Part shown: piece by piece, positions 4,358 through 55,703 of the stretch
How positions within the stretch are numbered: the stretch's first letter is position 1
Layout: each line of letters begins with the position of its first letter
Assembly (NCBI GenBank): GCA_947450025.1
Contig: CANFTW010000002.1
Location: 186,001-250,000, forward strand
Reading direction: 5' to 3'
DNA: 64,000 nucleotides
Origin: Bacteroidota bacterium
Lineage (GTDB): Bacteria; Bacteroidota; Bacteroidia; B-17B0; Aurantibacillaceae
Notes under the pieces: generated by a model
What the model saw: the letters and a program-made list of their open reading frames with translations, nothing else
Database searches by the model: none
Told to the model about the DNA's origin: nothing
Made by a program: the position numbers and the translations under genes

Positions 4358-5812
4358 ATGATAAAAGCTATCTTATTCTTTTTATTGACAGTTTTATTGA
4401 ACAATATAATTGCTCAACCTACTATTGAATCGATAATGGATTCATATAAAAAAGATAAGGATTTACAGCATGCCTCTTACAGTTTTTGTATTATGGAGGC
4501 GCAATCAGGCAAAATCATTAAAGAACTTAATTCAGAGTTATCTCTTGTTCCTGCTAGTACAATGAAAATTGTAACTACCTCAGCAGCTCTAGGTATTTTA
4601 GGAAAAGAGTATACATATAAAACAAAATTTTATAATTCGCTTTTCATTGACACTATAAAACAAAAAACATTAAGTATACTTTATGTCAAGGGTAGCGGAG
4701 ATCCTTCGCTCAATTCAGCATATTTTAATAATAACGATTCTTCATTTATAAATTACATAGTGCAAAAACTAAAAATAGGGGGATTAAAAAAAGTAACGGG
4801 AAATGTGGTGGTTAATAATACTTGTTTTGACAACAAAATTCCTGATACATGGATTTGGAGCGATATAGGAAATTATTTCGGAGCTGGCGCAAATGGGTTA
4901 TCATATAGAGACAACAAATTTTCAATTTATTTAAACAGTAGTGCTCAAAATTTGGATGTAGAATTGGCTGATGTCAAACCGATATTCTATAAAAATTTAT
5001 TAAAAATAAACACCTTTGTAAAATCTTCAGGCACCGAAGACGATGCCTTTGTTTATGGAGATCCCTATAGTTACACTCCACGAAAGATAACAGGGACAAT
5101 CCCTCCAAACAAACATAATTATGAAATAGAAGCCGAAGCACCACTTCCACATTTATATTTTGCAAGCGAGCTATCACAAGCCTTACAAAAAAACAACTTA
5201 CAAGACCCTTTTCATTATTTTAACGATATAGATCACAAAGAAGATGTTATTTCAAATGACAAATTAATATATACTCATGTATCACCGAGCTTAGAAAAAA
5301 TAGTATATTATACAAACATCAAGAGTAATAATCATTATGCTGAAAGTTTATTAAAAACATTAGGTGCTGTTAAATCTGGGGGACAAGGCACCACAAATAA
5401 TGGTGTTTTAGCTGTAGAAAATTATTGGAAAGAAAGAGGCATTGATGTTAGTGGCTTGCATATGGTAGATGGAAGTGGCCTATCAAGAGCTAATACAATT
5501 ACCACAAAAATCCAAGCTACCATATTATCAAAAATTTACAGAGATAGTTTAATGTATCCCGCATTTAATGCTTCTTTACCCGTTGCTGGAAAAAATGGTA
5601 GTATGTCAAGTTTATGCAAAGGAACTTTTGCAGAAGGTAATATGCGTGCTAAAACTGGTTATATTAATAGAGCAAGAGGATATTGTGGTTATGTAAAAAC
5701 AAAAACAGGAAAAGAATTAGCGTTCTCTATACTGTTTAATAATTACAATTGCTCAGCTAAAGAAATGAAATTAAAAATTGAGAAACTACTTATTGCAATA
5801 GCCGATTTATAA
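4358..5812 (+). CDS. dacB: D-alanyl-D-alanine carboxypeptidase/endopeptidase (PBP4, peptidase S13)
   Basis: A 484-residue exported penicillin-binding protein of the S13/DacB class, which trims peptidoglycan peptides in the periplasm. The signal peptide is residues 1-19 (NNIIAQ). All three catalytic motifs are visible: SxxK as STMK with Ser67 and Lys70, SxN as SNN at 323-325, and KTG at 432-434. The substrate pocket block DGSGLSRAN precedes the last motif. It is a single-gene unit: divergent from trmN6 and 5 bases from the convergent small secreted protein gene. No hairpin terminator lies between those two genes. Confidence 0.93.
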   Translation: MIKAILFFLLTVLLNNIIAQPTIESIMDSYKKDKDLQHASYSFCIMEAQSGKIIKELNSELSLVPASTMKIVTTSAALGILGKEYTYKTKFYNSLFIDTIKQKTLSILYVKGSGDPSLNSAYFNNNDSSFINYIVQKLKIGGLKKVTGNVVVNNTCFDNKIPDTWIWSDIGNYFGAGANGLSYRDNKFSIYLNSSAQNLDVELADVKPIFYKNLLKINTFVKSSGTEDDAFVYGDPYSYTPRKITGTIPPNKHNYEIEAEAPLPHLYFASELSQALQKNNLQDPFHYFNDIDHKEDVISNDKLIYTHVSPSLEKIVYYTNIKSNNHYAESLLKTLGAVKSGGQGTTNNGVLAVENYWKERGIDVSGLHMVDGSGLSRANTITTKIQATILSKIYRDSLMYPAFNASLPVAGKNGSMSSLCKGTFAEGNMRAKTGYINRARGYCGYVKTKTGKELAFSILFNNYNCSAKEMKLKIEKLLIAIADL

Positions 5813-54063: not shown

Positions 54064-54095
54064 TTGTTTAATATTAATTGTATTTTATTAAACAA
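54064..54095. repeat. Inverted repeat 1 upstream of the sigma factor gene
   Basis: TTGTTTAATA (54064-54073) and TATTAAACAA (54086-54095) are perfect 10-base arms around 12 bases. The centre lies over the putative -33 element. It is the first of two nearly identical units 41 bases apart. Confidence 0.7.
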
Positions 54096-54107
54096 TATGT
54101 ATATTTG
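54077..54107 (+). promoter_or_regulatory. Promoter of the ECF sigma factor gene
   Basis: ATTG (54077-54080), then 19 bases, then TATATTTG (54100-54107), matching the Bacteroidetes TTTG-N19-TAnnTTTG arrangement with one mismatch in the -33 part. Predicted transcription start is some 40 bases before the ATG at 54155. The element is embedded in the inverted repeats. Confidence 0.6.
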
Positions 54108-54137
54108 TTTAACAATTAATAATAAAGGTTAAACAAA
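54104..54137. repeat. Inverted repeat 2 in the leader of the sigma factor gene
   Basis: TTTGTTTAAC (54104-54113) and GTTAAACAAA (54128-54137) are perfect 10-base arms around 14 bases. The left arm overlaps the -7 element and the right arm ends 17 bases before the start codon, so it can act as operator DNA or as an RNA hairpin near the ribosome site. Confidence 0.7.
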
Positions 54138-54682: not shown

Positions 54683-54717
54683 AAAAAAGGATTTACAAAA
54701 TTGTAAATCCTTTTTTT
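54683..54717 (+). terminator. Intrinsic terminator after the sigma factor gene
   Basis: AAGGATTTACAA and TTGTAAATCCTT form a 12-base stem with almost no loop and are followed by seven T. It separates the sigma gene from the barrel gene. Confidence 0.9.
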
Positions 54718-54746
54718 ATGATTCCAAAATAACATTACTTTTGAAT

Positions 54747-55703
54747 ATGATTATTAAAAAAGCAATTATTAAAACAATCGTATTATGCATGTTTTTCAGC
54801 ATTCCATCTATAGCGCAAGATGATAGCGAAGAACGAGACACTACAACTTATGTTCCAGCCAAACAAAAAGGATTTCATGCAGGTTTATATGTAGGTGCAT
54901 TTTGGGCTAATAAAAATACAGCATATATCTATGATGGCTATGGATTTGATATCAATGGACAACGTAATACGTTTTCAAATAGTATTTTATACAATCAAAT
55001 TGTAAATGTATATGGAGGAGCTAATGGCGGCATAGATTATATTGCTCAGCTACTAAATGTTAATCACAGTGATTGGTCTTTTAACGAGCAGGATATGCCT
55101 TTTAATTTGAGGTACACAACGACCTACTTAGTTGGTTTAAACACAAGGTATCAAATAAATAAAAAAGCGAGCATCACTCTAAACATTAACGGATCAAAAT
55201 TAATTGTAAATGGTAAATTTACCATTCGCTCTAACCCATCTGCAAACGGAACTAATAACGGCGTTTCAAGTCAAAGTAAATTAAATCAATTCACAATCGT
55301 TGGAGCTGAACAACGATTAATGTTTCAGCTAGGCTACCAAAGAATCATTGGCAATCATGACAAACTAAATTTTATGGTTGAAGGTGGATTGAATATTATA
55401 TTATCAAAAGCACAAAAAAATCAAGCGATATTAAATAGTGATGTAAACAGTGGGCAAAATAATATCACAATTGATTTAATGACTTTATACAACCAAGCGC
55501 CTTATAATTATTACAGTGCAAAATACCTAATAGGTGGCGGCATTGGTGTATTTGGAGGTGTTGGATTACATTTAACTATTAATCCAAAATACACCATTCA
55601 ATTACTTTACAATCCTTCTTTTGACAGAATTAGTTTAGGATACAGTCCAACATTTAAATTGCAACATGGCGTTGGATTAAGAATATACTATAATTTGAGT
55701 TAA
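54747..55703 (+). CDS. Outer-membrane beta-barrel-like protein
   Basis: 318 residues from the ATG at 54747 (an in-frame TTG lies two codons up). Signal peptide with SIPSIAQ, a short acidic linker (DDSEERD), then alternating strands rich in Gly and aromatic residues (GFHAGLYVGAFWANK, YLIGGGIGVFGGVGLHLTI) and a C-terminal strand VGLRIYYNLS, typical of an outer-membrane barrel. No TonB box or plug. Ligand unknown. Convergent with corA, one base apart. Confidence 0.8.
   Translation: MIIKKAIIKTIVLCMFFSIPSIAQDDSEERDTTTYVPAKQKGFHAGLYVGAFWANKNTAYIYDGYGFDINGQRNTFSNSILYNQIVNVYGGANGGIDYIAQLLNVNHSDWSFNEQDMPFNLRYTTTYLVGLNTRYQINKKASITLNINGSKLIVNGKFTIRSNPSANGTNNGVSSQSKLNQFTIVGAEQRLMFQLGYQRIIGNHDKLNFMVEGGLNIILSKAQKNQAILNSDVNSGQNNITIDLMTLYNQAPYNYYSAKYLIGGGIGVFGGVGLHLTINPKYTIQLLYNPSFDRISLGYSPTFKLQHGVGLRIYYNLS

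Follow-up and report, generated by a model that had tools for sequence, protein, structure and literature searches.

Conserved paired inverted repeats over an ECF sigma factor promoter in Bacteroidota: candidate operators of a CarH/LitR-like MerR regulator

Introduction

What does a symmetrical array of four short elements do in front of the gene for an ECF sigma factor? In the window, i.e. the whole stretch of 64,000 nucleotides of Bacteroidota DNA that was analysed, such an array occupies positions 54064-54137 in the 331-bp gap between lysS, on the minus strand, and the gene for a 168-aa ECF sigma factor. An earlier note on this DNA had proposed that the symmetry is hard to obtain by chance and that it reflects either two bound dimers or an operator combined with a leader hairpin, in both cases controlling the sigma gene. 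Here, we address how rare and how conserved the array is, which protein would read it and what that protein would do to the sigma promoter.

Results

The sequence TTGTTTAA occurs exactly at 54064 and 54105 on the plus strand and TTAAACAA occurs exactly at 54088 and 54129, with gaps of 16, 9 and 16 bases between the four successive arms, and the array consists of two 32-bp TTGTTTAA-N16-TTAAACAA sites that are 41 bp apart from start to start (Table 1). The four alternating 8-base elements that the earlier note had reported are present at exactly these positions, as are its two inverted repeats with 10-base arms (54064-54073/54086-54095 in site 1 and 54104-54113/54128-54137 in site 2). In the search of the 3.2-Mb genome that it had proposed as a check, TTGTTTAA-N14..18-TTAAACAA is found in exactly two places, which are the two N16 sites of the array, and the backwards control pattern has zero matches in the same 3.2 Mb. 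Among 3000 simulated intergenic regions with matched base and neighbour composition (18% GC), neither a four-arm array nor an N16 inverted repeat appeared (0/3000 in each case), and a single inverted repeat with any gap of 3-40 appeared in two, in agreement with the claim that the symmetry is hard to get by chance. The single 8-mer is not rare in the window (20 observed vs 15.4 expected); what stands out is the array as a whole.

Table 1. Positions of the array, promoter elements and sigma factor gene in the window
Feature	Position	Strand	Remarks
Operator site 1 (candidate)	54064..54095	.	Exact TTGTTTAA-N16-TTAAACAA; kept upstream of sigma orthologues
Operator site 2 (candidate)	54105..54136	.	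Exact TTGTTTAA-N16-TTAAACAA, 41 bp downstream of site 1; conserved
-33-like TTG	54078..54080	+	19 bases upstream of -7, within N16 of site 1; sequence reading
-7 element TATATTTG	54100..54107	+	Bacteroidota TAnnTTTG; shares TTG with left arm of site 2
ECF sigma factor gene, 168 aa	54155..54661	+	Pfam and NCBIfam
Probable terminator AAGGATTTACAAAATTGTAAATCCTTTTTTT	54684..54721	+	After sigma gene; sequence reading

The product of the downstream gene contains sigma-70 regions 2 and 4 only (Pfam Sigma70_r2, PF04542, E = 9e-15; Sigma70_r4_2, PF08281, E = 2e-13), scores above the cut-off of NCBIfam TIGR02937 and has a length in accordance with the approximately 170-200 aa of ECF sigma factors. The promoter described in the earlier note fared unevenly. 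Its -7 element shares bases with the left arm of the second repeat, as described, and a TAnnTTTG in this position is found in every member of the genus tested, i.e. the candidate operator lies over a primary-sigma promoter; the -33-like TTG is present in the first loop and is not conserved in relatives. The transcript start, which is assumed from the -7 element, would lie near 54111-54114. The next gene after the sigma gene (window 54741-55703) codes for a 318-aa protein that matches no Pfam or NCBIfam family and is probably an outer-membrane barrel. In three genomes (G077, G125 and G147) the sigma orthologue carries one in-frame stop, which may be decay or a sequencing error. A further genome has two sigma paralogues approximately 8 kb apart (G037:C7, 8864-9355 and 17083-17574), the first of which adjoins the CarH/LitR-like MerR gene.

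In orthologues from the same genus, the site pair is kept upstream of the sigma gene while the remaining region has diverged freely. Across 77 related sigma loci, comprising those from named assemblies with enough upstream sequence and deriving mostly from metagenome-assembled genomes, a site with at most 2 mismatches is found within 300 bp upstream in 65, compared to 2.2% of shuffled sequences. Because of this difference we conclude that the array is not a product of chance, and neither of the two outcomes by which, according to the earlier note, the idea would have fallen (missing conservation or equally good shuffled arrays) was observed. The spacing of neighbouring sites is 41-44 bp in 31/42 pairs, most commonly 41 bp (18 pairs) and 42 bp (9 pairs), and 41-42 bp corresponds to about four helical turns. 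In 95 distinct exact sites, the arms lengthen to TTTTGTTTAAYNWW, and positions three to five within the arm almost never carry G or C. Conservation of the arms, of N16 and of the pair spacing upstream of sigma orthologues supports the proposal that the repeats are protein-binding sites that would control the sigma gene.

The distribution of the site across genomes bears on the protein that reads it. In a set of 41 genomes, a gene for a CarH/LitR-like MerR protein is present in all 27 that have a sigma orthologue, and the sigma gene is absent from all 12 that lack the MerR gene. Of 158 genomes belonging to the class, 57 contain both the MerR gene and the exact site, two the site alone, 38 the MerR gene alone and 61 neither (Fisher p = 8e-15, a value that overstates independence given the relatedness of the genomes), and this pattern recurs across many families. 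Thus, 57 of the 59 site-bearing genomes have the MerR gene; in the two others, one site is within a coding region and the other is before a folE operon. Of the 95 MerR-bearing genomes, 38 have no exact site, and variants or other layouts must take its place in them. Among the 73 exact sites listed, 23 lie at most 400 bp from the MerR gene. The site is present in 12/14 genomes that have the MerR gene without the sigma gene and in 0/19 that have the sigma gene without the MerR gene, and the occurrence of the site therefore goes with that of the MerR gene rather than with that of the sigma gene. In total, the data point to the CarH/LitR-like MerR protein as the predicted reader of the site rather than the sigma factor's own holoenzyme.

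In the genome under study, the MerR gene is on another contig (C9, 133076-133936). Its product has MerR and B12-binding_2 domains, the B12-binding region being C-terminal, and its best solved relative over most of the length is CarH of T. thermophilus (PDB 5c8d, E = 2.8e-21). MerR_1 and B12-binding_2 score above cut-off at L213:5068-5985. The Wx9EH motif is found in the protein under study (WQVGLVNPAQEH) and in all 24 orthologues read, and the axial-ligand motif ExHxxG is present in this protein and kept in nearly all of the 24. The later parts of the classic B12 motif ExHxxG-x41-SxT/V-x22-27-GG are altered: the SxT/V part reads mostly T-F-T and the GG part SG, the protein under study has T-F-T and SG, and its match to PF02310 is not significant. 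Moreover, His132, which follows the Trp of Wx9EH and caps the cobalt in CarH exposed to light, is absent and is replaced by Gln in 21/24, Thr in 2/24 and Gly in 1/24 of the orthologues. Gln at this position occurs in SasPcob, which has been studied with the cobalamin photoreceptors, among which the position varies (PMC11796333). We consider that the MerR protein is likely to sense light via B12 by homology to CarH; this is not certain because of the Gln at the His132 position and the altered later parts of the B12 motif.

In relatives, exact sites precede photoprotection genes, and they do so in either orientation. The genes under the site include photolyase operons (SRPBCC, DUF2805, SDR, flavin reductase and photolyase), folE with a pyruvoyl-tetrahydropterin-synthase-like gene, crtI/crtB and crtZ, a rhodopsin gene with a lycopene cyclase/carotene dioxygenase gene (crtY-blh), genes for secreted DUF4397 and fasciclin-domain proteins, and the CarH/LitR-like MerR gene itself. 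Several families of the class other than that of the organism have the MerR gene, the site pair, the sigma gene, crtI, crtB and idi in a row, and in many named loci a photolyase gene follows the sigma gene or the MerR gene precedes it. In the genus of the organism, the sigma gene stands alone with the operator pair still present.

Three of these targets deserve separate mention. In L079 (2438-5396) an exact site precedes a rhodopsin gene, after which comes a gene for a lycopene cyclase/carotene dioxygenase fusion, and therefore a light-driven pump may share the control. Exact sites also precede genes for secreted fasciclin-domain proteins (L071, L282, L285 and L298); because the algal fasciclin protein AstaP binds carotenoids (PMC10147662), these proteins may carry carotenoids and be induced by light. 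A DUF4397 repeat protein, likewise secreted, recurs as a target (L075, L076, L086, L089, L274 and L276) and in L075 bears a type 9 secretion tail.

In the genome under study, the promoters of the photolyase operon and of crtI have no exact site. Sites with 2-3 mismatches are no richer there than control matches (276 vs 260). A 1-mismatch site at C1:321602 was rejected as a further operator as it sits inside a gene, and a 2-mismatch site before crtI (C8:118763) was not counted as relatives keep only CCGTAAGTTTAAACA and not the left arm. Throughout the genus, this CCGTAAGTTTAAACA block shows strong conservation in front of crtI, with no left operator arm (C8 around 118780-118800, corresponding to L239, and L240-L247), and it may be a promoter read by the sigma factor. 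At the start of the photolyase operon (L233 about 5740-5790, and L234), TGTAAACTTA-N3-GAATATTT resembles the reverse of the crtI block. When TAAACTTA-N3-GAATAWTT, taken from the photolyase block, was used to look for sigma-target promoters, a single exact match and no excess over control resulted.

Discussion

Combining the conservation and co-occurrence data with the position of site 2 over the -7 element, we suggest that the array most probably represents paired operators of a CarH/LitR-family MerR regulator, which would repress the sigma promoter and be released by light acting on B12, with the sigma factor relaying the signal. The proposed sequence of events is modelled by homology on CarH biology. 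The MerR regulator on site 1 would cover the -33 region and on site 2 would cover the -7 element and the start site, and in that way the bound regulator would block primary-sigma RNA polymerase from the promoter. The regulator would be freed by light striking a B12 chromophore (a different signal is less likely); primary-sigma polymerase would then make the ECF sigma factor, which would hand the signal on to the photoprotection genes. Repression is suggested because of the operator position and the precedents of CarH and class II LitR (PMC8156234, PMC9304148, PMC9758184), and the sigma relay because the photolyase operon and crtI of this genome have no exact site, such that these outputs would depend on the relay or on degenerate sites. 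As exact sites in this genome occur before the sigma gene and nowhere else, the light response would use one promoter. Whether the wider system amounts to a CarH-family light regulon of Bacteroidota with an operator grammar of its own (inverted TTGTTTAA-N16-TTAAACAA sites in pairs four helical turns apart) and an ECF sigma relay is, in our view, evenly balanced.

Four other readings have to be weighed. It is conceivable, and we think rather unlikely, that the regulator works independently of B12 or senses another signal, such as that of a partner photoreceptor or oxidative or membrane stress, and that there is no direct control by light. The partial alteration of the B12 motif and the Gln in place of the His of the light-state bis-His link are in line with this, as is the dependence of class II LitR on a LOV partner (PMC9758184); however, Wx9EH and ExHxxG are retained in nearly all of the proteins, the same Gln is found in SasPcob (PMC11796333) and the targets are photoprotection genes. 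We regard it as improbable that the same MerR protein activates the sigma promoter from these sites, as classical MerR and some LitR proteins do. A poorly conserved -33 element, as found at activator-dependent promoters, and a site 1 upstream of the -7 element would fit activation, whereas site 2 takes a repressor position over the -7 element and the start site in every member of the genus, and the characterised CarH (PMC8156234) and PmlR2 (PMC9758184) proteins repress. Autoregulation, in which the sigma factor's own holoenzyme would read sites on its own promoter, is very improbable and was rejected: the sites do lie on that promoter, but they are symmetric, unlike a promoter, and go with the MerR gene and not with sigma. 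Finally, inverted repeats acting as RNA hairpins of a leader attenuator are scarcely credible. The full repeats do fold as RNA better than shuffles (z -2.5 and -3.8), but a transcript starting from the conserved -7 element would begin within site 2, in its left arm, and lose that arm, the shortened leader folds no better than shuffles, and the arms are fixed in sequence, do not co-vary and occur before genes in either orientation. Of the two options in the earlier note, we therefore retain the paired sites, as predicted protein-binding sites, and dismiss the leader hairpin on the basis of the start position and the folding of the remaining leader.

Searches of the open-access literature yielded no account of this site and none of a CarH regulon in Bacteroidota. 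The preferred reading of the array as operators of the MerR regulator brings genes for photolyase, pterins, carotenoids and rhodopsin together under one site. It also supplies an operator, a regulator and a set of targets with which light sensing can be put to a direct test throughout a major bacterial phylum. An unusual inverted operator of the CarH family would also be of use for structural work and optogenetics.

By sequence, the regulator belongs to the CarH/LitR family, and the operator is predicted to work like a CarH/LitR operator. The operators described for CarH consist of 11-bp direct repeats in tandem, nAnnTnnACAn (PMC8156234, PMC9304148), with a reported half-site core TnnACA (PMC9304148). 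Each arm of the array holds TnnACA, and the cores face outward as the inverted repeat TGTTTA-N18-TAAACA; the T. thermophilus-type direct-repeat layout was tested on the array and is absent from it, only the TnnACA core being shared. The system described here resembles CarH of Thermus thermophilus, Bacillus megaterium and Myxococcus in having a homologous MerR protein with B12-binding_2, Wx9EH and ExHxxG, the same half-site core, a candidate operator over a primary-sigma promoter and carotenoid gene targets. It differs from CarH in having inverted half-sites with N16 in 32-bp units 41 bp apart, Gln in place of His132 and a wider target set that includes an ECF sigma gene.

Class II LitR proteins of Pseudomonas (PplR1 and PmlR2) are likewise MerR regulators of photolyase, folE, SDR and related light genes and have two hexamers near the promoter. 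Their site, TGTACA-N12-TGTACA, is 6 bp narrower than TGTTTA-N18-TAAACA. Unlike class II LitR, the Bacteroidota protein retains Wx9EH together with the region of the axial His and has no known LOV partner. The LitR-LitS pair offers the third comparison. In Streptomyces coelicolor, the MerR light regulator LitR adjoins the ECF sigma factor LitS, which drives carotenoid genes. The Bacteroidota system parallels this arrangement of a putative MerR light regulator beside an ECF sigma factor, in another phylum and with another site.
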